A program made the translations under genes and the position numbers. A stretch of 20,500 nucleotides of DNA from a virus, in IMG/VR virus record IMGVR_UViG_3300010397_000099, positions 1 through 20,500 of that record. One strand, given 5' to 3'. The stretch's first letter is position 1, and every line of letters begins with the position of its first letter. Below the pieces are notes generated by a model. The model saw nothing but the letters and a program-made list of their open reading frames with translations. It made no database searches and was not told the origin of the DNA. Below are positions 2,746 to 20,500 of this stretch, in pieces.

Positions 2746-3783
2746 ATGAAGACCTTTTTCGCAACACTGATGAGCATGTTCGCCATGGCAATCCGTATGC
2801 CGCTCATGGCCTTTATGGGGATAATCCCCGGCGTTCCCGGCAGTGCAGATCATACGACCGGGACCGGTGATGCCCGTATTCCCAAGCTGTTCAGCCGGAT
2901 TTACCAGGACAAGTTTTACGACGAGTGTATTGCTCCGAGCATCTGCAATACAAAGTTCACTGGAGAGCTTAAAGGGCTTGGGAACCAGGTAACTATCAAT
3001 ACTATCCCTACTGTGCTCATCAAACCTCTTGTGCGCGGTCAGAAACGGCAGTGGCAGGAATGTGCGAGCGATCCCGTCATTATGACCGTCAATCGCGGCA
3101 ATACGTTCGACTGTCTCATTCTCGACGCTGACAAGGCCCAGATGTGGGACAAGGATTTCATCGGCACTCTTTCCAAGGATGCCCGTCAGCAGCAGAGTAT
3201 CGATGTTGACACCGCGTTCTTCGCCTCGAACTATCCTGATGCAGCTGCCGCCAACATCGGTACTGCTGCCGGCAAGAAGTCCGGGGCCACTGCTGCCGTT
3301 GCCGGTCCCGGCTACAATCTCGGCGTTACCAACACCCCTGTTGGTATCAACAAGATCAACGCCATCGAAAAAATCCGCGACTGCCAGTCTGTTGCGGATG
3401 AGCAGAGCTGGCCGAAAGATGACCGCTGGATGGTCATTCCGACCTGGATGGAGAACATGCTCGATATGTCCGATTACAAGGACGAGTCCCTGACGGGCAT
3501 GACCTCGACGCTGAACGGCGGCAGGATCGGCACCAGCGCGAAGTTCAAGCTGTACTCCACCAACCTCTACACCCCGATTGCTGACGGTTCCGGCAAGATC
3601 TGCTACCCGGTCATGTTCGGGCACAAGAGCGCAATCAGCTTTGTCAGCCAGCTGGCAAACGTCAAATACTTCCCGGAGCTTCAGGAAGTCAATGGCGCCG
3701 GTCTGTGCGGAGAGTACATCTACGACTGGAAAGTAACCAATCCGGCGGCTCTCGGCGTTCTCTACTGCTACGCAAACAAGTAA
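2746..3783 (+). CDS. Major capsid protein, HK97-fold type
   Basis: This 345-residue protein follows the scaffold by 12 bp. It has the features of podovirus HK97-fold coat proteins: an early helix (IPKLFSRIYQDKFYDE), a positively charged region around residue 85 (PLVRGQKRQWQE), a region WPKDDRWMVIPTWMENMLD near residue 225, and a C-terminal part (KYFPELQEVNGAG, then EYIYDWKVTNPAALGVLYCYA) typical of the A-domain end. The start is well supported because AAGGAG (2732-2737) sits eight bases before the ATG and overlaps the scaffold stop. The N-terminal 24 residues are odd: they are hydrophobic, hold seven methionines, and resemble a leader more than the usual polar capsid arm. The protein also has eight cysteines, which is many for a coat protein. 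A large yield of this product is expected, in line with the strong ribosome-binding site. Confidence 0.88.
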   Translation: MKTFFATLMSMFAMAIRMPLMAFMGIIPGVPGSADHTTGTGDARIPKLFSRIYQDKFYDECIAPSICNTKFTGELKGLGNQVTINTIPTVLIKPLVRGQKRQWQECASDPVIMTVNRGNTFDCLILDADKAQMWDKDFIGTLSKDARQQQSIDVDTAFFASNYPDAAAANIGTAAGKKSGATAAVAGPGYNLGVTNTPVGINKINAIEKIRDCQSVADEQSWPKDDRWMVIPTWMENMLDMSDYKDESLTGMTSTLNGGRIGTSAKFKLYSTNLYTPIADGSGKICYPVMFGHKSAISFVSQLANVKYFPELQEVNGAGLCGEYIYDWKVTNPAALGVLYCYANK

Positions 3784-4289: not shown

Positions 4290-4475
4290 ATGGCTCATCA
4301 CATGGTACAGGCGACCATTGCCGAACTCACCTTGAGGAATCAGATCAAGGATGACAATGGCAAGGTCATTTACGATGTCCGTTACGGCCACATCTACACC
4401 GATACCGTAACCGGCACGCGCTACTACATCACGATCGATGATGGCGCAATCAATAAAGTGGAGGTGGTTATATGA
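4290..4475 (+). CDS. Small hypothetical phage protein (61 aa)
   Basis: This short gene begins 11 bp after the preceding stop behind AAGGGGG, and its TGA overlaps the next ATG (ATGA), so it is held between two well-marked genes. The protein (beginning MAHHMVQATIAELTLRNQ) has a likely beta-rich core with GKVIYDVRYGHIYTD followed by a TRYYITIDDGAINKVEVVI ending, resembling a compact beta barrel. There is no membrane segment, signal or catalytic motif that I can see. I do not recognise the family. Its position suggests a head or neck accessory protein. Confidence 0.6.
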   Translation: MAHHMVQATIAELTLRNQIKDDNGKVIYDVRYGHIYTDTVTGTRYYITIDDGAINKVEVVI

Positions 4476-4717
4476 GGCGATTTCTCGCAGGCATTCTCAT
4501 AGTTGTAGCTCTCGCAGCTGCCAACCTCTCCTTTGGTGCCGCTGGCGACAAGACACCGGTGACTTCAACAAAGTTCCGCAACGTTTCATCGTCCATCAAG
4601 CCGCAATCAACATCACCAGGGGAGATCCGTTACAACCAGTCATATTTGTTCCTCAACATTTCCGGTACAGGGACACATACCCACTGGAGGCGAATCAGTA
4701 CCGGCGCCAGTTTCTAA
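4472..4717 (+). CDS. Small exported or membrane-anchored protein (81 aa), function unknown
   Basis: The ATG overlaps the preceding stop and is preceded by GGAGGTGG. The N-terminus is a textbook Sec-type signal: a basic MRR, a hydrophobic core FLAGILIVVALAAANL, then small residues (SFGAAG) suitable for signal peptidase I cleavage near residues 22-24. There is no lipobox Cys. The mature part would be about 58 residues, rich in Ser and Thr, with an SPGEIRYNQSYLFLN segment and a THTHWRRIS motif before the end. An export signal is unexpected in the middle of a virion operon. It could be a protein displayed in the host envelope, or a hydrophobic anchor in a virion protein. The mature segment's PGEIRYN...WRR pattern faintly recalls fibre-tip sequences, but the function is unknown. 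Confidence 0.6.
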   Translation: MRRFLAGILIVVALAAANLSFGAAGDKTPVTSTKFRNVSSSIKPQSTSPGEIRYNQSYLFLNISGTGTHTHWRRISTGASF

Positions 4718-5162: not shown

Positions 5163-5591
5163 ATGCAATACCTGAAAAAACATGGTGATCCGGACGGAAT
5201 TTTCTACGTTTACACAGACGCTCTTGCAGCAAGAGGGGATATGGTGCCTTACAACCCTGTTGCACAAGTAGTTATCGAGGACGCAATCACAGCTGAAGCG
5301 GAAACCGTTGAAGTGCCGGTTGCCAAAATCATCGATGAGACTGCCGCACCGGTTGGGTATCAGGTTGTCAAATACTCCGGCCAGTGGCATGAGATCATCG
5401 GACCTGATGGCGCGGTAGTTGCCAGGGGTCTGAAAAAGGACGAAGCAGATGCAAAGGTGGCTGAACTGCTTGCTGCAACAGCACCCGTTGAGACGGTCCC
5501 TGTTGAGACTGCCCCTGCTGCCCCTGCAATCACAGCTGAAGCGGAAACCGTTGAAGTGCCGGTTGCCGTTGTCGAAACTCAGGAGTCGTAA
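5163..5591 (+). CDS. Phage protein with duplicated ITAEAETVEVPVA motif (142 aa)
   Basis: This gene has an AAGGAG ribosome-binding site and its TAA overlaps the next ATG by one base. The N-terminus (DGIFYVYTDALAARGDMVPY) matches a short pattern common in small phage proteins encoded after capsid genes. The middle holds a compact domain around residues 60-100 (GYQVVKYSGQWHEIIGPDG followed by a LKKDEADAKVAELL helix). Low-complexity acidic, Pro- and Val-rich stretches flank that domain, and both contain the same motif ITAEAETVEVPVA, encoded by an exact 42-bp direct repeat. The function is unknown; a head or neck accessory role is suggested by its place just before the adaptor. The linker composition resembles flexible tethers of virion proteins. 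Confidence 0.65.
   Translation: MQYLKKHGDPDGIFYVYTDALAARGDMVPYNPVAQVVIEDAITAEAETVEVPVAKIIDETAAPVGYQVVKYSGQWHEIIGPDGAVVARGLKKDEADAKVAELLAATAPVETVPVETAPAAPAITAEAETVEVPVAVVETQES
5283..5567 (+). repeat. Exact 42-bp direct repeat pair, 243 bp apart, in frame
   Basis: The same 42 bases occur at 5283-5324 and 5526-5567, starting GCAATCACAGCTGAAGCGGA and ending GTGCCGGTTGCC. The copies are 243 bp apart, exactly 81 codons, so both encode the same peptide in the same frame. The match ends abruptly on both sides. Recombination between the copies would delete 81 codons without a frameshift. No other exact repeat of this length was noticed in the window. Confidence 0.9.
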
Positions 5592-6304
5592 TGCTGCCCT
5601 CCGAACTGCTGATAAGAGCCCGGAGACGGTTGCGTGACCTCGCCGGGTCAGTTGCTGATCGGCATTGGAGTGATATCGAACTTCTGGAAGAGTATGCGAA
5701 CGCCGCAAGGGACAAGATGTTCCTTGCGGTCAAGCATCTTATTATCGACTCGACCACGGCAACGGACTTAACCGCTCCGACTCCCCTTCCCCTCTGCTCT
5801 TTGGCTGTATTGGCGAATACTGCAACTTATGCCATGAGTCCGAAGATCATCGAAGTGACAAGCATCACTCTCTCCGGGCAATATCACTCGCTGGAGAAGA
5901 TGACTGTTGAAGAGATGGATGCTGCTATTCCCGGGTGGCGGAATGCCGGGGCTGGTCAACCGGTCATTTGGATACCGGACCTGAACACGGACAGCATAAC
6001 TCTCTATCCTCCCCCGGCTGCTCCATGCACGGCATCACTGACCGTCCGGCGTTTCCCGCTCAAACGACTCACGCTCGCCACAGCAGCTACATCGTGCCTT
6101 GATTTCAGGGAAGAGTATCACGAATATCTGGTGTATGGGATTCTTGCGGAAGCCTTTGGCAAGAACGATCTTGAAGTTAAGCGGCCCGACCTGTCGGTTC
6201 TCTATGAAGGGAAGTTCAACGACAAGATAGAAAGCGTTAAAGAGGACTTGAGCCGCAGAAACCGTACGAACCACGGCAACCGGGTAAGGAGGGCTTTCAG
6301 GTGA
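5591..6304 (+). CDS. Head-tail adaptor (connector) protein
   Basis: The 237-residue protein would dock under the portal ring and link the head to the tail nozzle. The N-terminus is helical (ELLIRARRRLRDLAG, then WSDIELLEEYANAARDKMFL), a layout typical of phage adaptors in which a first helix pair is followed by a 'W.D.ELL.Y.N.A' helix. A beta-rich middle follows (YAMSPKIIEVTSITLSG, then PVIWIPDLNTDSITLYPPP), and a long C-terminal helical part (FREEYHEYLVYGILAEAFGK to the basic end) would insert against the portal. Length and order, just before a nozzle-like gene, fit the T7 gp8/P22 gp4 functional position, though no direct homology is claimed. Its ATG overlaps the previous TAA (TAATG) and its TGA overlaps the next GTG, so translation is probably coupled on both sides. 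Confidence 0.78.
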   Translation: MLPSELLIRARRRLRDLAGSVADRHWSDIELLEEYANAARDKMFLAVKHLIIDSTTATDLTAPTPLPLCSLAVLANTATYAMSPKIIEVTSITLSGQYHSLEKMTVEEMDAAIPGWRNAGAGQPVIWIPDLNTDSITLYPPPAAPCTASLTVRRFPLKRLTLATAATSCLDFREEYHEYLVYGILAEAFGKNDLEVKRPDLSVLYEGKFNDKIESVKEDLSRRNRTNHGNRVRRAFR

Positions 6305-6684
6305 TTTATCTTCTGCTGCTTCTGGGCCTGCTTTTGCCGGTTCAATCTTTTGCCGGAAATCCTGCAACTATTCTGATGGACAATATCTCCACCACAAGGG
6401 CAGGAGTTGGAAAACGACTCGGCACGAAAGTCAAGACTGTTATTCTGCAAGGGTACTCTAGCAACGGAGTTGCACTGACTACCGCACTGCCTGGCACAAT
6501 AACCATCCAGTGCGGTCCAGAGGTGGTAGGTCCGTGGATTACCTGTGGAGATCGGAACGGCAATGCCATCGCAGGCACGGCAAATGCCATTTATGACATG
6601 GAAAGCGCAGTTCTGTTCATGCGGTACAACTACACAAAGACCCGCCGTGGTTCTGTCAAGGCGTGGATACTGGGGCTTGAATGA
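6301..6684 (+). CDS. Small virion-module protein with signal-like N-terminus (127 aa)
   Basis: The gene uses a GTG start that overlaps the adaptor stop (GTGA). The start is well supported by AAGGAGGG ending seven bases upstream. The first ~18 residues (MIYLLLLLGLLLPVQSFA) are strongly hydrophobic and end in an S-F-A/G site that suits signal peptidase, although the usual basic residue after the start is missing. The remaining ~109 residues look beta-rich, with GTITIQCGPEVVGPWITCGD and a late MRYNYTKTRRGSVKAWILG segment, a pattern shared with small phage structural beta-sandwich proteins. Two cysteines, in IQCG and ITCG, could form a disulfide if the protein is exported. It lies between adaptor and nozzle genes, so a neck or surface role is likely, but the function is unknown. 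Confidence 0.65.
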   Translation: MIYLLLLLGLLLPVQSFAGNPATILMDNISTTRAGVGKRLGTKVKTVILQGYSSNGVALTTALPGTITIQCGPEVVGPWITCGDRNGNAIAGTANAIYDMESAVLFMRYNYTKTRRGSVKAWILGLE

Positions 6685-8204
6685 TCCGTTTCGCCGGAGA
6701 AAATACCATTGCCGATGCTGCTTCTCTCAGTATGCGAAACGGGGAGTGTGTAAGGGCGGTCAATTGCGATATTGACGACAGTGGCAACGCCGTCAGGAGA
6801 GACGGGTTTACCCTTGTGACAGGTGGAGAAACAACTTCTCTCTGGGGTAATTACTGTGTCCAGAACAGCAAGATATGCTATTTCGATGGCGCCACGGTAT
6901 CACCGATGTCCGATGAGATAATTGTCTTGGCTGAAGTCCATTTTGAGCAGGTCAATAACATAGTGGTCTTCTCTGACGGCTTGGTCTACGGAAAGATCGA
7001 CAACGGCACAATCACTGTCCTTGACAATACAACCGACTGGAATGCTCTTGCTAACGATGTGACTCAGTGGGTGGAGAACCATGCGCCGGCAGACTTTCAG
7101 GCCGTTGTCAGTAACTTCGAGGTCGATACGTTTAAACTCTCCACGCAGGCAGGCAAACACCTTGTTTTCGCCGATGGGTGTGTCTATTTCGCTGTGGCCG
7201 TTGGGGATGCCAGTTTCGTTTTTCGCACTGATACCTTCAATGTCGATCGCACTGATATCCGGTTCAATGTGGTGGCCGGGTTCCCACAAACTATCACAGC
7301 TATCAGGGCGGTGGCAGACGCTCTGTATGTTGGCACAACTGGAGGAACATACTTCCTTGAGGGTCACGCCTTGGTGGTCCTCCCGGATGGGTCTAAGGTT
7401 GGCGGGTTCACTCAGAAGAAGATCGACGCATACGGCATTATCGAAGGGACCGACTTAACCATATCCGGAGAGGCAATCCCGTCGATCCAGACGAGTGCAG
7501 AAGTGATTATGTGGACCTGCCGACAGGGAATCATGGTGGGATTACCGAACGGTAATGTCATAAACCTGTCTTCAAGAAAGGTTGATTTCCCCAATGTCGC
7601 AAAAGGGGCGGCTGTCTTGCGGGACCACAATACATTGAAGATCAAGCAGTATATCGTCTGCTTTGATGTCGATGTCCTGGATGGCGCCGGGGCAATAGTT
7701 GCAGTTGATCTTACCGGCACAAGAGTTGTGAATCTCAATTCTATGGTTCGGCCTGATGGCAGTCATTCTTACGCACACAGCCGGTATGAACGGTTCCCAT
7801 TCAACTCTTTGACTCGTATAGGCAACGATTGCTACGGGGCCAATGCTGCCGGGATATTCCTTATCGGAGGGGAAACCGATAACGGGGCGCAGATAGACGG
7901 CTATGCTCGCTCTCTGGTGACGGATTTTGCAGTCAAAGAGCAGAAGAACGTTCCTGACGTTTATGCCCATGCCAGATGCGAAGGAAGTCTTCTGATAAGC
8001 ACGTTCGTAGATGAAGTGCTGAGAAGTGACGATGTACCAGTCTCCTTTGACGGGAATCCCGGGATACATCGCCGGAGATGTGAGCTACCGCTTGGGGTAT
8101 TCGGAACATCGTGGCAGTTCATGTTCAAGAATCAGGATGGAAACAGATTCACTGTTGCAGGTCTTGACCCGGTAGCAACAAAAAGCGTTTCAAGGGTCTC
8201 GTAA
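6681..8204 (+). CDS. Tail nozzle / head-closure protein, beta-propeller-like
   Basis: This 507-residue protein starts with an ATG overlapping the previous stop (ATGA). It begins MIRFAGENTIADAASLSMRN followed by GECVRAVNCDIDDSGNAVRR, an opening typical of short-tail nozzle and DNA-stabilisation proteins (T7 gp12-like and P22 gp10-like groups share the 'L..GE...A.N.D.D..G...RR.G' layout). The body is rich in repeating beta blades, with turns such as GNYCVQNSKICYFDGA, DALYVGTTGGTYFLEG, TCRQGIMVGLPNGNV and NDCYGANAAGIFLIGG, spaced as in a propeller. There are no membrane segments or enzymatic motifs. It would form the distal nozzle of the tail below the adaptor and could carry the fibre attachment site. 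Its TAA overlaps the start of the giant gene, so the two are probably coupled. Confidence 0.75.
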   Translation: MIRFAGENTIADAASLSMRNGECVRAVNCDIDDSGNAVRRDGFTLVTGGETTSLWGNYCVQNSKICYFDGATVSPMSDEIIVLAEVHFEQVNNIVVFSDGLVYGKIDNGTITVLDNTTDWNALANDVTQWVENHAPADFQAVVSNFEVDTFKLSTQAGKHLVFADGCVYFAVAVGDASFVFRTDTFNVDRTDIRFNVVAGFPQTITAIRAVADALYVGTTGGTYFLEGHALVVLPDGSKVGGFTQKKIDAYGIIEGTDLTISGEAIPSIQTSAEVIMWTCRQGIMVGLPNGNVINLSSRKVDFPNVAKGAAVLRDHNTLKIKQYIVCFDVDVLDGAGAIVAVDLTGTRVVNLNSMVRPDGSHSYAHSRYERFPFNSLTRIGNDCYGANAAGIFLIGGETDNGAQIDGYARSLVTDFAVKEQKNVPDVYAHARCEGSLLISTFVDEVLRSDDVPVSFDGNPGIHRRRCELPLGVFGTSWQFMFKNQDGNRFTVAGLDPVATKSVSRVS

Positions 8205-11200
8205 TGAAGATCCTCGACGCTTCCGAGGGATTGTGCTCCCAAAGCGCGATTTCTCAGGCTCGTTCTGTGGCAAAAACATTGCCGCCGAATGGGGCCAAAA
8301 CCCTCATTCAGTTCCTCACCCCTGGCAATTCCGATCAGGATTATTTTGTTCTACGCGTAAGGCCTTCATCGATCACGGTCATCAATGCCAACCGATTCCG
8401 CATTACCGGCGCTTCCAATGACGAGGCCGGAGTTCCTACCCTTACCTGGAAAAGCGGTGTCCCTCCGTTCGTAGTCAAACTGATTTACTCCAGCGTGGAC
8501 GGCACTACCCAGATATTCGACACAACCGGCATGGCGGTCAACCTCAACACAAACCTGACGGACGGGACCGGCGATATCGTGACCTCCGAGATGCCCCGCG
8601 AGTATGCCGTAACCAAGATTGTCGATGCTGACGGTTGGTGGGCAGATGACCTTGAGGATGTGGTTACTGACTCAAACCGGCAGAACGCCATCGGCCTGCA
8701 GATCGAGGACGCCAGCGGACGTAAGCTGTTTGCACCGTTCACGCCCCAGACAGGAGACATTGAAGGCATACCCAACTCACCACTGGCGACTCTCTACACT
8801 CACTATGGCCCTGATACGTGGTGTGTGCCGACTATCAACTGGTCATCGCCGGCTGGTATTACATATGGTACGAAGCTGGAGGTAGGCGTAACCCTCAACG
8901 CCGTTGTCTATGTGCCAGGGACGGAAACTCTTTTGCCGGGGGTGTTCAAGTATTGGCTGGACGCTGATTATACCATTCCTGCGGAGAATACCGTCCCTGT
9001 GGTCAATTCCGGTCTGCCGCTGTATGTTACGTTTCAGGCAACTGATGCGGTTCACTACCGCCTGGCAGCCGCTGAATCCGGGGTAGTGGTCAACAAATAC
9101 CAGCAGGTACTTGGTGAGCCGACAAATTACCAATCTTCGCCCTATATTGGTGGATACGTGATTCACACCATGCGGAGGCCGCTAAATCGAAACTCAGGGC
9201 TCGATATTGTCGGCAGCACCACAACCCCGAGTCTCGTATCCTTGGTCGGCATTGTAGATACCAGAGTCGTCAACCCGCAGGAGACAAACCCGGAGTTCGG
9301 GCCGTGGCTGGAGACGGATATCAAATGGACGCTGACCGGGGCCGGCTTCGCGCATATATCGTACCAGCAGCCAGGAGATAGTAACTATCTTGCGTCGAAT
9401 GTCCAGAGTAAGACTGTGACGATCAGTGTTGGATCGGGTGGCACTATCACCGGCACTTTTGACGTGAACGACCCACAGCCGATTGTCTACGGTACGGGTT
9501 TCGACTTCCTTGTGGATGCCGGGGGGCTGGCTGGCAACCCTTCTTATGCAGCGACCGCCCATGAACCGCAAGGATGGCGGGTTACCCCGGCATGGGGAAC
9601 GCTGCTGCAGTGCAATGCAGACGGTACGAACAAGGTAAACAACGTATTTGCCGACTTTTACCCGAACGATACCACCAACTACCCCTCCCCTATGGAGTAT
9701 ATGGCAGGGGTTGAAGTCACTCAGGACACACCCATCATAGACTGGACTCCATCTACCATGACTTTCGGAGATCCTTGGTCAACGATCATGACGGCAGTAT
9801 GGCGCAACTCGATTAACGGCAGTGCTGTAAACGGCACCACCACCTACACGGTGTCCGGGCATGCCAATGCCACCTTCAACGGTGTCATCTCCGACCCGAC
9901 CAAGATACCGGATGCCGATACCGGGATATTCATTGTCTGCAGCTTCGTTCCTGACAATTCGGGTATCTCGGACTCATCGCTGTATCGCGCCCACAACTAC
10001 AAGAATCCGGCACCAACAGGTGCTACCGAATACGGCGTTGTCATTAACAAGCGCCCTGTCTGGATAGTGCCAACTACGGATGTGGTGGAGTATGGCCCTC
10101 AACCGATTGCATTCACAAGTCACGGCCCAGGTGGTGACAGCAAACCGCAGGCAAACGGCTTGATGCTTGGAGATGATTTCAGCGGCGAACTGTCCGCAGG
10201 ATTTACACCCTCGGCAACCCCATACGCCATAACGATAGGCACCCTGTCGGCAGGGGCAAACTACGATTTAACGACGAATTTCGATAGCACGAAAACCCGC
10301 ACAATCAACAAGCGGCAACTGGTGCTGTCTGCTTTGTCGGTATATTGGGGTGGCCTGCTTTCTTACGATGCATACAAAATGACCAGCTACAGCTTCGGGA
10401 CGGTTACGGCAAAGCTCAACTGGACACTGGATGATGCACTGAAGAACAAAATAGCCTTCTCCGCCAGCGGCATCAATCCAACCTCGACCCCGGATATCGA
10501 ACAGCATGACGGAACCGGGTCGAACTACTCTTTCGCCTATGTGTCAATGTCCGGGTTTACGCCGAACCCGTCAACCTTTGTACTCACACTTACTGCGAGC
10601 CTGACGCTGACGACTGACCAACAGGTTTACTACATCGCTCCTACGCCGATATCCATTACAAGGAGCAATTCAACGCTACAGGCCGATGTCACGTTCCCCG
10701 GTCAGGCCACGACCTATAATTACGGCAGCAGCTACACGATAACCGCCACGACCGATCCGGCAGGCAAGACCGTTACGTACTCCTACAGTGGCGGCACGGC
10801 TCCATCCGGGGAAATCACTGTCTACGGTCCATCTGCAACCAAGCCGACGAATGCAGGTTATTATGTCGTCACGGCAACAGTAGACCCGGCCACCGGCTAC
10901 ACCGGTACGGGGATATTCGCATACTCAATCCTGAAGGTGAATTGCACAGTCAGGTTCGATCTGCCTGCCTCCATACTGGCCGGTCAGTCCCTGCTCGACG
11001 TATCGGCTGCGGCCAGCGTCTACGATGCAGGCAATACGACCTATCTGGGAATGCCGGTCAATTACTACTTCACCAAGACCGGTTCGGTATTCAGCCAACC
11101 CCTTCGCGGAAATGGCACGAATGAGAACTACAAGTTTGCCCCGAGTTCAGGGGTTACGGTCTATGCGGTGCAGGAGGCGAGCCCCAACTACAACGTGGCA

Positions 11201-14200
11201 TATGCCAGCGATACGATGGTGGTTAAAGAGACTGTGACGATCACCAGTATTGTCCTGCCGTCTCTCACTCCGACCATGTATTTCCCCCTCGCGGCTGACG
11301 GGACTGGTACGGGATCGAGCGTCACGGCAAAGAGTTCCAATGGAGTCACAGTTGCCTGCACCTACATTTACAAGGTTGTGGGCGGGGCATGGTCAAGCGA
11401 GCATACGATCACCTCTGCCGACATGCTGCCGATAGGCACATATCAGCTCCGCATTTACCCGACTCTCCCCGGAGGAACTGGCTACTACCTGCTCCCTGGA
11501 TATTACGCCACATATAATCTGTCTGTAGGTATCGGCACTGTGTCGGTATCGTGGACTGATGCCCGGACGATTACCTATTCAGCAGGAGGAGACGGGACCG
11601 GCATAACAGCCAAGGCTCTGATGGATGCTGTCGCGCTGGACGGCTCTACCAATGTCACCAGTCACTTCACAAGGGTCTATGAGGTGCAGGCCGGAGGCAC
11701 CTGGAAGGATATGGAGACAACCGCCCTGGCTGCCGGAGAGTATTTCGCCCGGGTGACATTCACACCCACTGGAGTTGATTATGCCTCCCCTCCTGTCGTT
11801 GAGATCGGGTTTACAATGCAGTGGTCCGACTTTGCTTACTCGGTGGCCGGCAACGTAGTCACGATTTCGGGGAAGGGCTGCGGTCAGCCCGGGGGATACC
11901 TTGCCTCGCGGCGATATGGGAACGGCACAATCAACATCACTGACGACAGCATCATAGGGGCTGAGATAGTCTTTACAACGCAATCCGGCCCCAACGAGTT
12001 TAAGTTCACGCTGCAGAAGATATCGACGGCGAGCGCCTGGGCTCGCAATGCCGATGTTGACGAGTTCGGGGTAGCGAAAACCGGCATACTCTTTACCGAT
12101 CTGTTCAACAATACCAAGTACGTGCCGTTTCAGGCGGGGTTCACCCCTCCGGTCAAGGCGGTTGTTACACTGACCGTTACTCCGGTATCTCCTGTTTACT
12201 ACGAGGGGTTGTTTACTTTTTCTACACTGACCGCCAAGGTCGGAGCATCTGATATCGCAGGGACGTGGAGTTTTCGGGCGGTGAAGTCCGGTTTCGATGA
12301 GGTTATAAGCGTAAACCAGAAGCTCAATGCCGGGAGTTACACCGTTACGGCAACATTTACCCCGACTGATACTGTTGTCTATTCGGCATCTCCCGTAAAT
12401 TTCAATTTCACGGTCAATCCGGTTGCTCCGGTCATGTCCTGGGGAACAGCGGGGATTGTCCCGGCCTACTTCACTCCAGCAGCTCAGACAGTCAAAGCGG
12501 CAAGCATGAATGCCACGGCGAAGCATCCGGTCAGCAACTCGAACATCTCCGCTGATTACGAAACGAAGACATACGAAATCCAGCTGTACGGGTACTGGTA
12601 CTCGCTGATAAATAATCACATATATACGCTCGGGGATTATCCGGTACGGGCCTCCTTCAGTTCCTCCAACCCGAACTATGCTTCAGGCTCTGTGACTGCG
12701 ACCCTTCACGTTACTGCCGCTGCAATGGCCTACTCGCGATATGCCGAAAACGGTGCACTGCTGCCGGACAACTATATAAGGATCTCCGGCGGGAGGCCGT
12801 ACGGTGAGCCCTATGGATACTTCCCGACCATCGTAGATGCCGGCAAAACGACGAATGCCACAGTGGATTATGGAACTCTGTCTGGTGACAGCTTCATTCA
12901 TTACCTCCATAAGAGCAATACGGCCTTGCCGTGGAGTTATGCGGACAGCAGTGGCGGCACGTTCTACTTTGAGGACCAGGATCATCAGTTTCTGGCAGTG
13001 CCGTTCCAGGCAGGGTTTACCATTCCGCTAAAGGCATCTCAGACCATCTCGGCCATCACCATGTCGGCTCCGGTGTATCTTGATCCTATTTTTGGCAGAA
13101 CGGCCCGGATCTGGCAGACGGCTACGCTCTCTCCACAAAACTCGTCAGCAGGGTTGCCGGTGGTGTTCTCGTCATCCAACCCTGCCGTAGCTTCCGTCTC
13201 AGGCCGGACAATCACCTGTAATGGTGTCGGTTCCTGCACCATCTATGCAAATCAGGCGGGACAGACCAGCGACCCGCAGTATGCCGCAGCCGGTCAGGTG
13301 TCTACGTCCTTCAGGGTGCTGCAGTCAGTCAGCTATACCGTCATGTTCGATAACAACATCCCCCTGCAAAACCCTGTAATGGAAGGATGGCTTGCCCTGC
13401 CGGTGCTGCAACGGGCGAGTTACGCCAGCATTGCGGGGACTTGGGAGTATCGGGCGGATTCGACCGGTGGGGCGCTGGTAACTGCCTACACCACATTCCC
13501 CCGCGACTCGGGGAAATTATATTATGCCCAGTTCACCCCATATGACAGCAATTTTGTCCAAAGCGACTGGCTACAAGGTGGCCTTGTTTGCACGGGTCTT
13601 GTATGGGTTCGATCCTATAAAGCCATCACCGGGTATAACATCCATTACGGACAGGCACTGTCTTCTGTGGCAAGCAATACTTCCCTTGTAACGGTAGATA
13701 ACAGTACCGGTCAGGACGTAAAAAGCACTGGCACTATGTCGTTTGAGATTCTTGACGGCGATGGTGGCGTCCGGGGTGGATGGGACACCAATGCAGTATT
13801 TGGAGCAGGGAGCTGGTTTTTTAAGGCAATCTTCACCCCTTCAAGCAGTGAATATCAGGCCGGTAGCGACTGGACAGGGTTCAACATCTTGCGGGCTCCT
13901 CTTACCGTCCTGCATTCCGACACATATTTGAATAGCGGGAGAGCTTACGGCGATGTAGGCTGGCACAATCTTGTCATCGCCCTGATAAACGGAAATATCA
14001 CCTTCATGATGAACTCCGGTATTGTCGCCTTATCAATGATTTCCTTACAGCAACAATACGGCACCGTCTCTCCGATGCCGGTATTCAACCCGGACGGGTA
14101 CGACCACTTCAACGTGAAGTTCTGGTGCATGCAGGCGGATTTTACATGGAAGCAGTACGTTGATAATGGGGGGAGTTACAACTGGTTTATCACTTCAACG

Positions 14201-14320
14201 ATTTTCGTAAACGGATCGACTCAGGTAGGTTCAATGAAAGCCATGTTCAAAGTAAGCGTGGAAACTGACAATTTCGAGTACAGTGAATCATCGTTTTTCT
14301 GGGTCACAATCAATTACTAA
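8204..14320 (+). CDS. Giant multi-domain Ig/MBG-like virion protein, probable fibre or adhesin
   Basis: The 2038-residue product is built from many beta-sandwich domains of the kind found in bacterial adhesins. An N-terminal ~200 residues are unique and probably attach it to the tail. A first Ig/MBG-like domain (about 209-298) starts INWSSPAGITYGTKLEVG; a related one starts IDWTPSTMTFGDPWST (about 512). Another (about 619-706) has VEYGPQP and ends in LSAGANYDLT with a TINKRQL tail, and one at about 829-911 has NYGSSYTITATTDPAG and NAGYYVVTATV. Two related modules end in FQAGFTPPVKA (1207-1319) and FQAGFTIPLKA (1508-1612). A Big-type domain with SSSNPAVASVSG follows (about 1612-1705). The last ~140 residues are unique. 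No signal peptide, LPXTG or autotransporter end is seen, and the start is coupled to the nozzle gene, so export as a cell adhesin is unlikely. Its partner and receptor are unknown. Confidence 0.72.
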   Translation: MKILDASEGLCSQSAISQARSVAKTLPPNGAKTLIQFLTPGNSDQDYFVLRVRPSSITVINANRFRITGASNDEAGVPTLTWKSGVPPFVVKLIYSSVDGTTQIFDTTGMAVNLNTNLTDGTGDIVTSEMPREYAVTKIVDADGWWADDLEDVVTDSNRQNAIGLQIEDASGRKLFAPFTPQTGDIEGIPNSPLATLYTHYGPDTWCVPTINWSSPAGITYGTKLEVGVTLNAVVYVPGTETLLPGVFKYWLDADYTIPAENTVPVVNSGLPLYVTFQATDAVHYRLAAAESGVVVNKYQQVLGEPTNYQSSPYIGGYVIHTMRRPLNRNSGLDIVGSTTTPSLVSLVGIVDTRVVNPQETNPEFGPWLETDIKWTLTGAGFAHISYQQPGDSNYLASNVQSKTVTISVGSGGTITGTFDVNDPQPIVYGTGFDFLVDAGGLAGNPSYAATAHEPQGWRVTPAWGTLLQCNADGTNKVNNVFADFYPNDTTNYPSPMEYMAGVEVTQDTPIIDWTPSTMTFGDPWSTIMTAVWRNSINGSAVNGTTTYTVSGHANATFNGVISDPTKIPDADTGIFIVCSFVPDNSGISDSSLYRAHNYKNPAPTGATEYGVVINKRPVWIVPTTDVVEYGPQPIAFTSHGPGGDSKPQANGLMLGDDFSGELSAGFTPSATPYAITIGTLSAGANYDLTTNFDSTKTRTINKRQLVLSALSVYWGGLLSYDAYKMTSYSFGTVTAKLNWTLDDALKNKIAFSASGINPTSTPDIEQHDGTGSNYSFAYVSMSGFTPNPSTFVLTLTASLTLTTDQQVYYIAPTPISITRSNSTLQADVTFPGQATTYNYGSSYTITATTDPAGKTVTYSYSGGTAPSGEITVYGPSATKPTNAGYYVVTATVDPATGYTGTGIFAYSILKVNCTVRFDLPASILAGQSLLDVSAAASVYDAGNTTYLGMPVNYYFTKTGSVFSQPLRGNGTNENYKFAPSSGVTVYAVQEASPNYNVAYASDTMVVKETVTITSIVLPSLTPTMYFPLAADGTGTGSSVTAKSSNGVTVACTYIYKVVGGAWSSEHTITSADMLPIGTYQLRIYPTLPGGTGYYLLPGYYATYNLSVGIGTVSVSWTDARTITYSAGGDGTGITAKALMDAVALDGSTNVTSHFTRVYEVQAGGTWKDMETTALAAGEYFARVTFTPTGVDYASPPVVEIGFTMQWSDFAYSVAGNVVTISGKGCGQPGGYLASRRYGNGTINITDDSIIGAEIVFTTQSGPNEFKFTLQKISTASAWARNADVDEFGVAKTGILFTDLFNNTKYVPFQAGFTPPVKAVVTLTVTPVSPVYYEGLFTFSTLTAKVGASDIAGTWSFRAVKSGFDEVISVNQKLNAGSYTVTATFTPTDTVVYSASPVNFNFTVNPVAPVMSWGTAGIVPAYFTPAAQTVKAASMNATAKHPVSNSNISADYETKTYEIQLYGYWYSLINNHIYTLGDYPVRASFSSSNPNYASGSVTATLHVTAAAMAYSRYAENGALLPDNYIRISGGRPYGEPYGYFPTIVDAGKTTNATVDYGTLSGDSFIHYLHKSNTALPWSYADSSGGTFYFEDQDHQFLAVPFQAGFTIPLKASQTISAITMSAPVYLDPIFGRTARIWQTATLSPQNSSAGLPVVFSSSNPAVASVSGRTITCNGVGSCTIYANQAGQTSDPQYAAAGQVSTSFRVLQSVSYTVMFDNNIPLQNPVMEGWLALPVLQRASYASIAGTWEYRADSTGGALVTAYTTFPRDSGKLYYAQFTPYDSNFVQSDWLQGGLVCTGLVWVRSYKAITGYNIHYGQALSSVASNTSLVTVDNSTGQDVKSTGTMSFEILDGDGGVRGGWDTNAVFGAGSWFFKAIFTPSSSEYQAGSDWTGFNILRAPLTVLHSDTYLNSGRAYGDVGWHNLVIALINGNITFMMNSGIVALSMISLQQQYGTVSPMPVFNPDGYDHFNVKFWCMQADFTWKQYVDNGGSYNWFITSTIFVNGSTQVGSMKAMFKVSVETDNFEYSESSFFWVTINY

Positions 14321-14332
14321 AGGAGAATTATC

Positions 14333-15376
14333 ATGACAATCGCTAATGCAAGCAACTTAGCCGACCAAACCATTACCAGCATAGCCGCAGCACAATCAGG
14401 TATCTCAACCGCCATGACGAACCTGAATAACGTCCTGTCGGGATTCTCCTTCTCGTCCTACTCCGGCGTTTCCACAACAGGGATTTACGTAGACCCTTAC
14501 ACTCTGTTTCCTGACGCCGATTCCGTTATCAAGACGGCGCTGGCAAATTTCGACACATCTGTTGCAGCAATAACCTTCCCTACCCTGCCGGACCTTGAGA
14601 CACTGCCTACCGGTGCGGAAGCCGCCTGGACGGAAACTGGTTGGGCCGACCTGAAAACGATGTTGACCGCCTTTACCTCCAATATAACATCTGCCGATGA
14701 TGTTGATTCAGTCTTGGCAAAGCTGACCAGTGATACCGACAGGGTGAGTAGCGCCATGTTCCAGAAAGGGCTTGGGCGCAGACAGCAACTTCTCCGGGAT
14801 GAGATCAGCGCGGCGGCAACCATGACCGGCAATTCTGGGTTCACCTATCCGAACTGCATGACTCAGGCGTTTATGACCCAGGCTCTTCAGCGGTTCAACC
14901 TTGGGCTCAGTGATGAATCACTCAAACTCGTTGACAAGCTCTTCGAATGGGCGAAGGTCAATTTCCAGTTTGCAGCCGAAAAGCAGATTGCCGCTCATAG
15001 CGCGGATACCGATTTCAATATCAGGTATGCCGGGGTGCTGATTTCGGCCTATAGCGAGAAGGTAAAGGGGTTGCTGCAGCAGTATAAGGAAGAGATGGCC
15101 GGAATCTTCGATAAGGCAGCGGAGGTCATGAAGGCCTATACGGTCAGGCTGGAAGTTGCCAAAGGGAACGCCCTGATTCAGAGTGAGGCGGACAAGCATA
15201 ATCTGGCCGTTTACACGGCGCAAGTGCAGGAAAGCGTTGCAGCCTTCAAGATGATCACTGACCAGATTATGACAGTCAAGACGCAACAGATAACCGCTGC
15301 GGCATCGGCGGTTACTGCTGCAGCTACGATGGCACAGGCGGCTAACCAGGTAGCAGTAGGCGTTCTGAACGGATAA
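14333..15376 (+). CDS. Conserved phage helical protein of unknown function (347 aa)
   Basis: The gene follows the giant gene by 12 bp behind AAAGGAG. The N-terminal ~60 residues are Ser, Ala and Asn rich with weak helix. Residues ~60-140 hold Thr- and Pro-rich segments. A central motif with GLGRRQQLLRDEIS (about 146-159) and NSGFTYPN (167-174) recalls a podovirus family in which 'R....E.......GF..P.G' is conserved. The rest (about 180-335) is a long Ala-rich, Gln-rich coiled helix region with an Ala-Thr-rich end. It lacks membrane segments and enzyme motifs. The position, between the tail-surface gene and the ejection genes, suggests a structural component of the tail or an internal protein. 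The specific function is unknown. Confidence 0.65.
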   Translation: MTIANASNLADQTITSIAAAQSGISTAMTNLNNVLSGFSFSSYSGVSTTGIYVDPYTLFPDADSVIKTALANFDTSVAAITFPTLPDLETLPTGAEAAWTETGWADLKTMLTAFTSNITSADDVDSVLAKLTSDTDRVSSAMFQKGLGRRQQLLRDEISAAATMTGNSGFTYPNCMTQAFMTQALQRFNLGLSDESLKLVDKLFEWAKVNFQFAAEKQIAAHSADTDFNIRYAGVLISAYSEKVKGLLQQYKEEMAGIFDKAAEVMKAYTVRLEVAKGNALIQSEADKHNLAVYTAQVQESVAAFKMITDQIMTVKTQQITAAASAVTAAATMAQAANQVAVGVLNG

Positions 15377-15469: not shown

Positions 15470-18007
15470 ATGTACGATTGGGAGTCTGTAGTACGGAATG
15501 CAGTCACCGATTTTAACCGTAAAATGCAGGGAGTGCCGCCAACAGCAGGAATAGGATTTGCTGAAGGTGGAGATATTGTCCAAAGAGCGGCAGACGCGGT
15601 TGGAGTGTCTGCAAGCATCCCGGGTGCAACCACTATCGGCATTCCCACAATCATGAATGCCGGTCGAAAGGTGGGGCAGTTCTTAGGGATAGGACAGCCA
15701 GAGCCTGTCCCCACATACACCCCGGCGGAGATGCGGGATCAATTCATTGAAAACGAGAGTGCCGATCCCCTTGCCCAACGGCTGAACAACTCAATCTCTC
15801 AACTCAGTGCGGCAGGGTACGCAGAGGGTGGTATGCCGCGACCTGCCGGCATCATCCCGGGTCCGGTGATCCCCGGCGGCGGCGATAACACGTTGACTCC
15901 TACCCAGACCGGAGAGTACATCATCCCGGTTGACGCTATTATTGCAATCGGGGCGCAACTTGCTCCAAATAGCAAGCTCTCACCTGAAGACGCTTTCAAC
16001 CTCGGAAAGAAGACCCTCGATCAGACTGTCATGGGGCTGAAGCGGTCAGTCGGTAATGACACCCCTCCCCGGAACATGGACATGCAGGCGGGATTTGCTG
16101 AAGGCGGTATGCCGGACGTTCCCGGGGTGGTTCCGCGAGATGAAGAAACATACCCGTTGACTGACCAGTTTAACTCCACTCCTGCCGGGATAAGTACCAC
16201 TGCTGCCGGGTTCCCGAAGTTTCAGAACAACACGCTCGACATAACCGGCTCAGAGCGGCCTATGAACATTGCCACGGCACCCGGGCCTTCGAATAATCCG
16301 GTTCAGTTCGGTACGCCAAAAACAGCGGCACCAACAGACACTTTCACTGCGTTGTATCCGACTAAGACCGCCGGGATACCGGTGGCGGCACCGGCTGCCC
16401 CTGGTCCTGCAAGCAGACCGTCAAAAGTGAAAAACAATGGTTGGGCCGTTCTCTCTCCCGTTCCTCAGGCAATCGACGTATCGCAAAGGGTAGGCTTGCC
16501 AACGGCTGACGATTGGAGAGAACCGCCACTTGTGGATGCTCCTGCAGCAGCGGAAACCCCACAACCTGCACCGCTCCCGACAAGCAATTATGGCGAAATC
16601 ACCAATGAGGACGGGATAAAGACGCGGGTTTACCTCCCGAGCGAGAATGCGCCTACCGGGTTTCGCACTTACGAAAGCCCGGTTATGGATGCTGAGGGTA
16701 AACCGGTCCTTAATCCTGATGGATCTCCTGTAACAGAGACCAAGCCATTCAATATAGTCAACATGGACCCTGCGTTTTCTCCTGACAACAATGCCAAGGG
16801 CGGCTATGTCAGCCCGAATACTCGTCCCGATGGTTATACTGATTACGGTGATTCGGAAGGCAATGCAGCGCGGCTGGCACCTGGTCTACCGTTGCCGGGA
16901 ATCAGTGGCGATTCGTCTGTTATGGGGCTGTTCGGTCGAAAAGGCCGTAGGGAGCAGGCGCTGAACGATGCTCAGGTTGCAAACTTCAATTCAGAGATTG
17001 CGAACAGAGCCGGAGAGTTGGGACTGAAGCAGGAAATGCAGCCGGTAGAGATGGGCCTGAAGAAAGCACAATCTGAACAGGCGTTGGGACACGGCCAGTG
17101 GTGGAATGCCAAATCAGAGACTGAAGGCTCCAAGGTTGAACAAGGCAACCGAGCGTTGGATATTAAGGAAAGAGATGTTGCCTCTAAAGAGGAATACCGC
17201 AAGAGAATGGCAGAAATAAAGGCCAACGTGGGCAACGGACAGGTATCAACTCTCGATCCTCAGACCAGAAAAGACCTTGCACGGCAATACGCTATAACCG
17301 GCCAATTGCCACCTTTGGGGATGGGCGCGGCAGCGGCGGCAGACAGACGCGCTATCCTCGCCGAATGGTCCAGCGACATGCACAACGGCGGGACAACTGT
17401 TGAAGACAAGGTGCTGCAAAACTCGGCACTCAAGGCCAGTCAGACCGAGCTTACCAACCTGCAGAAGCAGCGCGGTCAGGTAATGGCGTTTGCGAAAACC
17501 GCCAGCAGCAACCTGGAGCTGGTGGGCAAACTCTCGGAGAACGTGGATAGAACAGGCGTGCCGTTGCTGAACAAGTGGGTGATAGCTGGGAAGAGATCAG
17601 TTGCCGGTGATCCTGAAGTTGCCAAGTTTGATGCGGCAGTGCGGACGGCTATCAATGAGTATGCCAAGGTTACGTCCTCCGCAACCGGTGGACAGGTTAC
17701 ATCTGACTCGGCCAGGAAAGAAGTCGAGAGCATGTTGAACACAGCTCAAACTCCGGAACAGGTCAGACAGGTCATAACATTGCTTCGTCAAGAGATCGGT
17801 AACAGGTCCAAAGGTTATGACGACCAGATTGCAGAGATCAAGGGTGCCATTATCGGCAAACCTGCTGCGGGGTCTACGGCAGGCATCCCCACGGTGAAAC
17901 CCAGAGGTAAAGCCACTCTCGCTATAGCGACCAGCTACGTCCAGCAGGCCGGTGGTGACAAGAATAAGGCCAGACAGCTTGCTAAGGCTGATGGATGGGA
18001 GTTCTAA
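15470..18007 (+). CDS. Internal virion / DNA-ejection-type protein (845 aa)
   Basis: The start follows a weak GAGGTG ribosome-binding site. The first ~210 residues hold three copies of a short motif, FAEGG or YAEGG (at F30, Y117 and F209), and a GEYIIPVDAIIAIGAQL segment near residues 148-164. This pattern is common in podovirus internal or tail-associated proteins. A long Pro-, Ala- and Asp-rich, apparently disordered middle (about 230-500) includes an NMDPAFSPDNN segment. The C-terminal part (about 500-770) is charged, helical and coiled. The extreme C-terminus (AGGDKNKARQLAKADGWEF) matches the short 'A.GD...A..LA...GW.F' tail seen in many phage virion proteins. No lysozyme or transglycosylase motif was seen. 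The context suggests an ejection protein that works with the next gene product, which is inference. Confidence 0.65.
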   Translation: MYDWESVVRNAVTDFNRKMQGVPPTAGIGFAEGGDIVQRAADAVGVSASIPGATTIGIPTIMNAGRKVGQFLGIGQPEPVPTYTPAEMRDQFIENESADPLAQRLNNSISQLSAAGYAEGGMPRPAGIIPGPVIPGGGDNTLTPTQTGEYIIPVDAIIAIGAQLAPNSKLSPEDAFNLGKKTLDQTVMGLKRSVGNDTPPRNMDMQAGFAEGGMPDVPGVVPRDEETYPLTDQFNSTPAGISTTAAGFPKFQNNTLDITGSERPMNIATAPGPSNNPVQFGTPKTAAPTDTFTALYPTKTAGIPVAAPAAPGPASRPSKVKNNGWAVLSPVPQAIDVSQRVGLPTADDWREPPLVDAPAAAETPQPAPLPTSNYGEITNEDGIKTRVYLPSENAPTGFRTYESPVMDAEGKPVLNPDGSPVTETKPFNIVNMDPAFSPDNNAKGGYVSPNTRPDGYTDYGDSEGNAARLAPGLPLPGISGDSSVMGLFGRKGRREQALNDAQVANFNSEIANRAGELGLKQEMQPVEMGLKKAQSEQALGHGQWWNAKSETEGSKVEQGNRALDIKERDVASKEEYRKRMAEIKANVGNGQVSTLDPQTRKDLARQYAITGQLPPLGMGAAAAADRRAILAEWSSDMHNGGTTVEDKVLQNSALKASQTELTNLQKQRGQVMAFAKTASSNLELVGKLSENVDRTGVPLLNKWVIAGKRSVAGDPEVAKFDAAVRTAINEYAKVTSSATGGQVTSDSARKEVESMLNTAQTPEQVRQVITLLRQEIGNRSKGYDDQIAEIKGAIIGKPAAGSTAGIPTVKPRGKATLAIATSYVQQAGGDKNKARQLAKADGWEF
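15554..16107 (+). repeat. GGATTTGCTGAAGGYGG repeat encoding GFAEGG
   Basis: A 17-base sequence occurs at 15554-15570 and 16091-16107 with one change (GGTGG against GGCGG). A diverged third copy (GGGTACGCAGAGGGTGG) starts at 15815. All three encode (G)F/YAEGG in the same frame of the 845-residue protein, roughly 90 residues apart. They mark a probable threefold repeated unit in its N-terminal 210 residues. Confidence 0.65.
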
Positions 18008-20500
18008 ATGGCCGATATCTTTGATCAGGTCCAGTATGAGCCGCCGAAGAGTGGGGGAGATATCTTTGACCAGGTAGACGCTTCCGCTCCGGTATCTTCC
18101 CCCGGCATCCCGGTCAACCCGGACTTCACCGGCCACACCTACACCGGTGGCAAGACTCCGGAAGAGGCGAGGCAGGAGTTTATGAATAAGGAGCAGGTCA
18201 AGCCGGGACTGCCTGTCTGGGATACCGTCAAGACCGTTGCAGCCGAACCGTTCAAACTGGCAGGTGAAGCCATTGCAGCCCCTATCAACGCTGCTGCGAA
18301 GGCTGGCAAGGGGTACATGGGACTCGCTTCAGCGATCAAAGCCGGGATAAATGGCGGATCTCTTGACGATGCCTTGCAGTCTGGAGTTGACACTATTGGC
18401 AATAGAAACCCCGTTCAATCACCCCTCGGAGCTTCAAAAACCGGCGAATTCCTAGGAGAGCATGCCATTCGTCCCGGCATCCAAGCCGCCAGCGACTTCA
18501 CCGGACAACCTGAATTGGTGCAGGGCGCGGCGGAAGTGGTCGGGGATGTTGCAGCATTACTCGCGGCTAAACCGGCAATTTCCGCAGTAGGAAAAGCCAG
18601 TGTGCGTGCTGGTAAAGCCGCACTTTCCCCCATCGAAACATCGAAATACTTCATTGACGGCAAGCTGAAAGAAGCCGCTGCAAAACAACTGGCTGAATCA
18701 ACCACCGAATCAGGGCCAGTAGCAGAACAGGCGGCAAAGAACACAGCTGAGACAGCGGCCCTGCAAGAACGAGTCCCCGGCGTTAAATTCGGGCTTGGAC
18801 AAGTAAGTGAAGATCCTAAGACACTGGCGCTTCAGCGGCGGTTGAACATGACCAATGACGAGGCCAAGGTTTTGAATGCCGATCAGGTAATGGGCAATAA
18901 CCAGGCGGTGATCGATCATCTACGCAATACGTTACCTGAAGGGAGCATTGATGACGTTTTGGGGGCCATTGAACAACAGCGTGTACGTGCCGCCAAAACA
19001 TCATCAAACGAGGCGCTTAATGCGGAGACTGCGGCGGCTGGAATAGAGGGAGATACTCAACAGGCCGCAGGGCAGACCTTGAGAGAAGGGGCAAAAACCG
19101 TCAAAGGGGTCTTGCAGCAAAAAGCGAAGGATCTTTATGATGCCGTGCCGCGAGAGTTGGAGTTAGACAGCACCCCGCTTTACCGGAGTATCCAAGAAAT
19201 TGGCGGAGCTTCCGACCCTGCATTTCAGAACATCTCCGCCACTCCTTCAGATGTGATGAACAGAGCAAAAGGGGCGTTAGAACCGGAGCCATCAGCGATT
19301 CTCGGGGCCGATGGCAAGCCTTATAATCAACCGGCTGTTGATGCTGGCATCCCTCAAACAATGACCTTCGGCCAACTGCAGGATTTCCGCTCGCAGGTAA
19401 CGGCGGCTGAACGAGTAGCAAGATCAACCCCTGGTCAAGAAGCATTGGCAATGAAACTTGGCAAACTTCGAGAAGGGGCTGACGCCACTTTGCAACTGGC
19501 AACCGACACAGGCAAAGGCGAGGGGGTAGATGCTCTTCGTGCGGCCAACAAGTTTTATCGTGAAGAATATGTCCCAACAGTTCGGCAGGGAGCAACGTCT
19601 AAAGTGCTGGCGACTGACCGCACAGGCGGAAGCAAGGTGGAAGATGCTTTGGTTGGATCTGAATACTTCAAGCCGGGGCCAAAAGGAGTAGCGGCAGCAG
19701 AGTCATTTAAAAAGACTTTCGGGGATACTCCAGAGGCTCAACAAGCCATCAAAGATCATGCGGCGCAGGATTTGTTGAGAGCGGCGAGAAATCCGGACAC
19801 TGGAGAGATAAGGCCAACTGCCGTCAATCGTTGGATCAACCGGCATCAAGAAGCGCTCCAAGGATTAGGGATTGAGGACCATTTCAAAAACGTTCAATCA
19901 GCCGCAAAGATGGCGGAGAACGCTCGGGCAGTCGAAGCGGAATTCAACAATTCCCGGCTTGCCAAAGTCCTTGACAGCACCGACACCGATAAGGCTATGG
20001 ATGCGCTATTTAGTTCAGGTTCCAAGGATACCGTGAATACCATGCGGCATCTGATAAATCTCACCAAGGGTGATGAGGCAGCCACCAACGGACTGAAACG
20101 CTCCTTTGCTGATCTCATGGTAAAGAGGGCTCAAGTCGCCGATACAGATATGGCCGGCACCCCGAAAATGTCGAGCGCTAAATCAGGGAAGGTTCAAGAC
20201 CAGCTCGATGCAGCCAAAAAACTTCTCTACGATCCCGATGAACTTCAGGCGGTGAACGATGTGCAGCGGATTACTGAAATAGGGAACAGGATCAATAAAA
20301 ATGTTTCCGGGGTTGCTGGCAGCCAGACTGCAGATCTTGGGCAAGGCCTCCTTATGAAATATGGCAAAGCAGTAGGCCATATCCTGACGGGAGGCGGAGT
20401 CGGGTATATGGCACATGGCCCTGTAGGTGCTGCAATCGGTGCGACTGTTGGTGCAGGGGTCAAGGCCGCTATGAAGGTTACAGGAGACCAAGTACAGTCC
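18008..20500 (+). CDS. Internal virion / DNA-ejection protein, 3'-truncated by the window end
   Basis: The frame starts at the ATG right after the preceding stop (TAA immediately followed by ATG) and stays open for 831 codons to the window edge. The N-terminus carries a twice-repeated DIFDQV motif (residues 3-8 and 18-23), a signature of podovirus internal virion proteins. Amphipathic Ala/Gly-rich segments follow at about 74-117 and 177-205. A long helical, charged body runs through LQERVPGVKFGLGQVSEDPK, many Glu/Gln/Lys helices and DHFKNVQSAAKMAENARAVE. Near the visible end (about 791-822) a Gly-zipper hydrophobic stretch, TGGGVGYMAHGPVGAAIGAT, could insert in a membrane. These traits fit proteins that leave the capsid with DNA and form a channel across the host envelope. 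No enzymatic motif is visible in the part present; one could lie downstream. The ribosome-binding site is weak (GGGAG, about six bases before ATG). Confidence 0.7.
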   Translation, partial: MADIFDQVQYEPPKSGGDIFDQVDASAPVSSPGIPVNPDFTGHTYTGGKTPEEARQEFMNKEQVKPGLPVWDTVKTVAAEPFKLAGEAIAAPINAAAKAGKGYMGLASAIKAGINGGSLDDALQSGVDTIGNRNPVQSPLGASKTGEFLGEHAIRPGIQAASDFTGQPELVQGAAEVVGDVAALLAAKPAISAVGKASVRAGKAALSPIETSKYFIDGKLKEAAAKQLAESTTESGPVAEQAAKNTAETAALQERVPGVKFGLGQVSEDPKTLALQRRLNMTNDEAKVLNADQVMGNNQAVIDHLRNTLPEGSIDDVLGAIEQQRVRAAKTSSNEALNAETAAAGIEGDTQQAAGQTLREGAKTVKGVLQQKAKDLYDAVPRELELDSTPLYRSIQEIGGASDPAFQNISATPSDVMNRAKGALEPEPSAILGADGKPYNQPAVDAGIPQTMTFGQLQDFRSQVTAAERVARSTPGQEALAMKLGKLREGADATLQLATDTGKGEGVDALRAANKFYREEYVPTVRQGATSKVLATDRTGGSKVEDALVGSEYFKPGPKGVAAAESFKKTFGDTPEAQQAIKDHAAQDLLRAARNPDTGEIRPTAVNRWINRHQEALQGLGIEDHFKNVQSAAKMAENARAVEAEFNNSRLAKVLDSTDTDKAMDALFSSGSKDTVNTMRHLINLTKGDEAATNGLKRSFADLMVKRAQVADTDMAGTPKMSSAKSGKVQDQLDAAKKLLYDPDELQAVNDVQRITEIGNRINKNVSGVAGSQTADLGQGLLMKYGKAVGHILTGGGVGYMAHGPVGAAIGATVGAGVKAAMKVTGDQVQS
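18014..18075 (+). repeat. Direct repeat encoding DIFDQV twice
   Basis: GATATCTTTGATCAGGT (18014-18030) and GATATCTTTGACCAGGT (18059-18075) differ by one base over 17 and lie 45 bp (15 codons) apart. They encode the paired DIFDQV motifs at the N-terminus of the last gene. The repeat is a protein motif repeat kept at the DNA level, perhaps from a recent duplication. Confidence 0.75.

Follow-up and report, generated by a model that had tools for sequence, protein, structure and literature searches.

A 2038-residue MBG/Ig-like repeat protein, a likely tail fibre, in the tail module of a short-tailed phage contig

The 20.5-kb linear IMG/VR record IMGVR_UViG_3300010397_000099, the whole of which forms the window analysed here, is probably part of a phage genome and encodes a 2038-residue protein that we read, with a probability of about two in three, as the giant MBG-repeat tail fibre of a short-tailed phage. 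A first-pass annotation had described a 6.1-kb gene covering about 30% of the window and coding for 2038 residues, in agreement with the frame of 2038 open codons at 8204-14320 on the + strand (29.8% of the window). The chain has a mass of ~217 kDa and is rich in Thr, Ser and Gly.

Gene layout of the window

Every long gene of the window lies on the + strand. The genes, with the evidence for each in brackets, are as follows.

3..1406, +: portal protein, 5' end cut (phrog_332, 3.5e-22; matches in 35 phage records)
after the portal gene, +: 67-aa protein (gene order)
before the major capsid gene, +: 337-aa protein in scaffold position (phrog_13678)
2746..3783, +: major capsid protein (phrog_267, 4e-28; 31% to Rhizobium phage RHph_TM3_14A)
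between the major capsid and adaptor genes, +: several small proteins (gene order)
5591..6304, +: head-tail adaptor, SU10 type (PF24175, 2.4e-18)
6301-6684, +: 127-aa protein (signal-peptide-like start)
6681..8204, +: nozzle, 507 aa (phrog_8040, 4e-17; phrog_26502, 7e-10; PDB 26gp_Q)
8204..14320, +: MBG/Ig-like repeat protein, 2038 aa, likely tail fibre (Pfam domains, open frame)
14333..15376, +: helical tail protein, 347 aa, KPP25 gp04 (PDB 26la_X) family (HMM, hhalign)
15470..18007, +: 845-aa protein, presumed ejection or internal virion protein (position only; no match)
18008..20500, +: protein of 831 or more aa whose frame runs off the 3' end, presumed to be an ejection protein (location; N terminus of MADIFDQV type)

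Head genes of the window are ~25-35% identical to those of Rhizobium phages, HMO-2011-type phages (Roseobacter, Pelagibacter, Puniceispirillum) and many uncultured phages. The flanking of the 2038-residue gene by phage head-tail genes on the same strand supports the tail-fibre reading. The portal, major capsid protein, SU10-type adaptor and Hc3-type nozzle around it bear out its earlier placement in a podovirus tail module, and these neighbours do not make it a bacterial adhesin lying outside a phage. The 127-aa (6301-6684) and 81-aa (4472-4717) proteins of the head-tail module have signal-peptide-like starts (MIYLLLLLGLLLPVQSFAG; MRRFLAGILIVVALAAANLSFGA) and are putative exported phage proteins.

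The stop codon of the nozzle gene, TAA (8202-8204), shares one base with the ATG of the 2038-residue gene (8204-8206) in the string TAATG, and AAGGG is located 7 nt 5' of this ATG. One-base overlaps are present at the same junction in KPP25 (gp06/gp05, 7852), HTVC033P (15000) and two further relatives (L091, 7056; L090, 16148). They are ordinary at this place, and thus give no support to the earlier suggestion that the coupling points to stoichiometric assembly with the nozzle.

The window is a metagenome contig, and a second copy of its arrangement was not found, as would fit an assembly artefact in which a bacterial adhesin gene was joined onto a phage contig. Such an artefact is hardly probable at all: the frame of 2038 residues is intact, its overlap with the nozzle gene is exact to the base, the next gene is preceded by a Shine-Dalgarno-like stretch, and GC content and codon usage are uniform. 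Because both of these measures in the 2038-residue gene are similar to those in the neighbouring genes, a chimeric contig is unlikely.

Domains and repeats of the 2038-residue protein

The profile search that had been proposed as a check on the MBG identity of the protein gave one match each to MBG_2 and MBG_3, both exceeding the curated Pfam cut-offs (25 bits for each) and placing the protein among the MBG-domain proteins. The regions of the chain are listed below.

8204..8818, +: non-repeat N-terminal region, aa 1-205, presumed virion anchor (no family match)
10148..10276, +: MBG_2 domain (PF18676), aa 649-691 (25.6 bits; 2.9e-5 in hmmscan of pieces)
10682..10912, +: MBG_3 domain (PF18887), aa 827-903 (27.8 bits; 1.4e-5 in hmmscan of pieces)
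11615..12418, +: copy 1 of a duplication, ~aa 1138-1405, with weak Big_13 and Big_3_5 inside (blastp 1e-13 to copy 2)
12485..13318, +: copy 2 of the duplication, ~aa 1428-1705, with weak Big_2 at 13115-13234 (blastp and shuffle scores)
13802..13840, +: aa 1867-1879, GAGSWFFKAIFTP, the final clearly recognisable occurrence of the MBG-like motif (14.8 in the leave-one-out test, with the 95% point of shuffles at 11.8)
13916..14317, +: C-terminal region, aa 1905-2038, possible tip (no family match)

Beyond MBG_3, weaker matches to Big_13, Big_3_5 and Big_2 were obtained, and PF17883 (MBG) did not match the protein. All of the MBG-type motifs noted earlier are present: YGT four times, YGP three times, NYDLT at 686 and NAGYYVVTATV at 883. 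The MBG-like motif xAGxYxVxAxFxP is seen in five copies, at 883, 1176, 1375, 1475 and 1867, four of which score above the shuffle 95% point in a leave-one-out test. A unit of ~270 residues is present twice, with a score of 92, where shuffles did not exceed 73, and a blastp value of 1e-13 in direct comparison of the copies. The description of the protein as an Ig/MBG fibre over its whole length is borne out for ~aa 649-1880, to which the MBG/Ig signals are confined, and not for aa 1-610 and 1880-2038, which gave no significant family match in the hmmscan of pieces. MBG-like phrases are legible by eye in aa 206-610. AlphaFold2 predictions made without homologues had a mean pLDDT of ~30 for aa 1-720 and aa 1410-2038 and were uninformative on the fold.

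MBG and Big domains are mainly known from bacterial surface proteins, and the 2038-residue protein carries both MBG domains of such proteins (PF18676, PF18887). Unlike them, it is encoded in a phage tail cluster and has neither the export signal nor the cell-surface anchor of a secreted bacterial adhesin. As stated earlier, an export signal is absent: the best 12-residue Kyte-Doolittle mean at the N terminus is 0.46, a value without a hydrophobic stretch, as compared to 3.1 in the signal-peptide-bearing 127-aa neighbour. Surface anchor and autotransporter families did not match in Pfam scans. The domain content would suit a cargo gene (moron) acquired from a host, whose product is a bacterial adhesin displayed by the infected cell, but we consider this quite improbable, as the protein lacks signal peptide, anchor and autotransporter match, the gene is embedded in the tail module with the codon usage of the virion genes, and promoter- and terminator-like sites around it do not exceed the number expected by chance. 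The two MBG domains above cut-off, the absence of a signal peptide and the neighbour-like codon usage are instead taken in support of a tail fibre.

Neither 50,697 phage records nor the IMG/VR scan nor the relatives tested yielded a homologue of the protein. Searches against INPHARED (tblastn), PDB, PHROGs, NCBIfam and 50 related virus records returned nothing, and no PHROG matched at E up to 1, phrog_37070 (the family of KPP25 gp05) included. The protein was accordingly not assigned to any known tail-fibre family of the same length and domains, which leaves the earlier description in place; the lack of a sequence relative of established role weakens the tail-fibre reading. With the lone MBG_3 domain as query and an E limit of 10, phages gave chance-level matches only (E of at least 1), many of them to Hoc-like proteins. 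MBG_3 was absent from the 50 related records in a search that detects the domain in the window and in which no control genome matched. Across IMG/VR the strict motif PTNAGxYxVTAT was present in one contig, L166 (IMGVR_UViG_3300034082_004705), which was rejected as a phage parallel as it encodes a secreted bacterial-type protein. That contig has genes for a large secreted protein of RCC1-repeat type, for an integrase and for a transposase-like protein, and is apparently bacterial DNA that was classified as viral. The pattern PxIxWxxPxxIxYGT had three matches in bacterial genomes, which were unrelated. MBG arrays in the post-nozzle place were not encountered elsewhere, within the range of one strict motif in IMG/VR and MBG_3 in the 50 related records. 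In a relative with a related capsid (L049:4041-6608), an 855-aa protein is nozzle-like at its N terminus, after which a phrase of He_PIG/Ig-like character, LPFAAYPGALAVSL...AMPNGLELDTASGVIYGTP, was recognised by eye.

The interval after the nozzle gene and the proposed role

The location of the gene between a nozzle domain of the KPP25 gp06 type and a protein of the gp04 family is a further argument for a tail fibre. The 347-aa protein matches an HMM of the KPP25 gp04 family with E 0.0012 (hhalign E 6.7e-6); none of 500 shuffles scored as well, and it was the sole non-member sequence to score above all of them. KPP25 gp04 is present in the PDB entries 26la and 44nx. A nozzle domain followed by a gene X and then by a member of the gp04 family is common to the window (X of 2038 aa), Pseudomonas phage KPP25 of the genus Kochitakasuvirus (gp05, 649 aa) and the uncultured L189/L173 (637 aa) and L186 (422 aa). 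'Putative tail protein' is among the annotations of the KPP25 interval holding gp05 in two records. In the HMO-2011-type phages HMO-2011, CRP-1, HTVC033P and phiM6, whose portal and capsid are related to those of the window and whose nozzles are not detectably similar, a fibre gene follows directly after the nozzle as in the window; the post-nozzle gene of this type encodes 506-1080 aa and is mostly annotated as a tail fibre or as structural. Since relatives keep a putative tail protein or a fibre there, we favour reading the interval as a slot for appendages, the occupant of which is exchanged, and the tail-fibre reading gains from it. The comparison with related tail genes, proposed in the first-pass annotation, thus places the gene within the tail module, at a position matching the one where KPP25-type and HMO-2011-type phages have their tail-appendage slot. 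The slot order is variable, with X coming after the helical gene in several other relatives (736, 714 and 669 aa), and this weakens the reading.

The gp05-type slot proteins share the interval with the 2038-residue protein and, in KPP25, the one-base overlap with the gene before it. They differ from it as follows: there is no detectable similarity, they have one third of its length and no Pfam MBG match, and their 75-residue N-terminal module is undetectable in it (HMM score -0.5, against E 1e-15 to 1e-26 among the source sequences of the module and their close copies). N-terminal homology to the slot proteins appeared plausible by eye and failed this HMM test. Because the module is undetectable, we keep the protein out of the slot-protein family and assign it the same place only. 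The conserved N-terminal module of HMO-2011-type fibres (MAGYTRQS...GHxHDGT) had no match in its N terminus either. A virion-anchoring N terminus homologous to that of a known fibre was therefore not seen with slot-protein HMM or HMO-2011-type fibres, which counts against the tail-fibre reading.

An internal or ejected virion protein, with a function in the periplasm or channel while the genome is being delivered, would fit the immediate downstream genes, which code for presumed ejection proteins. It is improbable here, as repeats of the MBG/Ig type are characteristic of proteins outside the cell, the composition is rich in Thr, Ser and Gly, and the KPP25-type slot precedes the helical virion protein and lies outside the ejection genes.

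A precedent that favours the tail-fibre reading is found in crAss-like phages, in which tandem BACON (Ig-like) arrays, with a proposed role in binding to the host surface, are located among the tail genes (PMC6949934). The crAssphage array and the 2038-residue protein both contain tandem Ig-like domains of bacterial surface-protein type encoded in the tail region. However, the former is built of ~eight clearly homologous repeats of BACON (PF13004) rather than MBG and belongs to another phage group, and Pfam scans with an E limit of 1 showed no BACON in the 2038-residue protein. As tandem Ig-type phage-tail arrays are already known, the protein is a variant on a known theme.

We infer that the protein is part of the virion and attaches to the tail. 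The N-terminal ~200 residues would fasten the fibre to the nozzle or tail collar, and the string of MBG/Ig-like beta-sandwiches would form a flexible stalk projecting from the tail. The last ~150 residues, the Ig-like domains or both would bind the host surface, either a glycan or a surface protein. A long array would hold the site of contact well away from the short tail and offer many weak binding sites. Receptor-binding, chaperone and spike domains were not recognised in the protein in Pfam and PHROG scans, which weakens the tail-fibre reading, and since the contig covers just 20.5 kb of a genome, further fibre genes may be encoded outside it. These two points would also agree with an Ig-array tail decoration, a virion surface protein with weak, Hoc-like glycan or matrix binding, the true receptor-binding protein being encoded in the missing part of the genome; phage Ig-like domains are frequently accessory decorations. 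We regard a decoration as unlikely, because the gene occupies the tail-appendage slot and is not among the capsid genes, and 2038 aa is far longer than known decoration proteins.

If the fibre is in the virion, a short-tailed phage would be using MBG adhesin domains for its main tail appendage, a further case beside crAss-like BACON in which phage tails have recruited bacterial surface-domain arrays. The post-nozzle interval would then be a site where unrelated host-contact modules swap between phages with related heads. It is conceivable, although we hold it doubtful, that an MBG-adhesin array captured from bacteria became the main host-contact organ of a podovirus lineage, with a new N-terminal nozzle anchor on the ~217 kDa chain, replacement of the usual fibre or spike and flexible multivalent weak binding.

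The nozzle gene and its relatives

The nozzle encoded upstream is composite, with an Hc3-like part (~aa 1-330) and a C-terminal domain (365-495). Its first part corresponds to the head closure protein Hc3 (phrog_8040, 4e-17; hhalign E 1.5e-4 to Hc3 of relatives). Over its final 130 residues it matches the C-terminal domain of gp06 (PDB 26gp_Q), a component of the virion of Pseudomonas phage KPP25 for which structures have been deposited; the same domain is present in proteins of ~27 uncultured phage contigs. An HMO-2011-type nozzle was considered for the window and dropped, as similarity was undetectable and the KPP25 type fits.

Hc3 and the nozzle C-terminal domain are encoded by separate genes in KPP25-type phages and form a single chain in the window. 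A single chain of reversed order is seen in L195:4988-6400, with the domain at 21-101 and the Hc3 part at 194-451. By their sequences, the nozzles of the window, the KPP25 type and L195 may represent a single nozzle unit that was fused, split and permuted.

Two neighbouring genes in L186:7714-10444 (645 and 257 aa) each have the nozzle C-terminal domain at their end, which suggests a duplication or two interchangeable nozzle-tip proteins. The domain is preceded by WD40/BNR (Pfam) in L188:887-4270 and by BNR-like phrases, read by eye, in L185:8573-10411 and L186:7714-9650. As these preceding parts are unrelated repeat or propeller-like modules, the nozzle C-terminal domain carries exchangeable modules.
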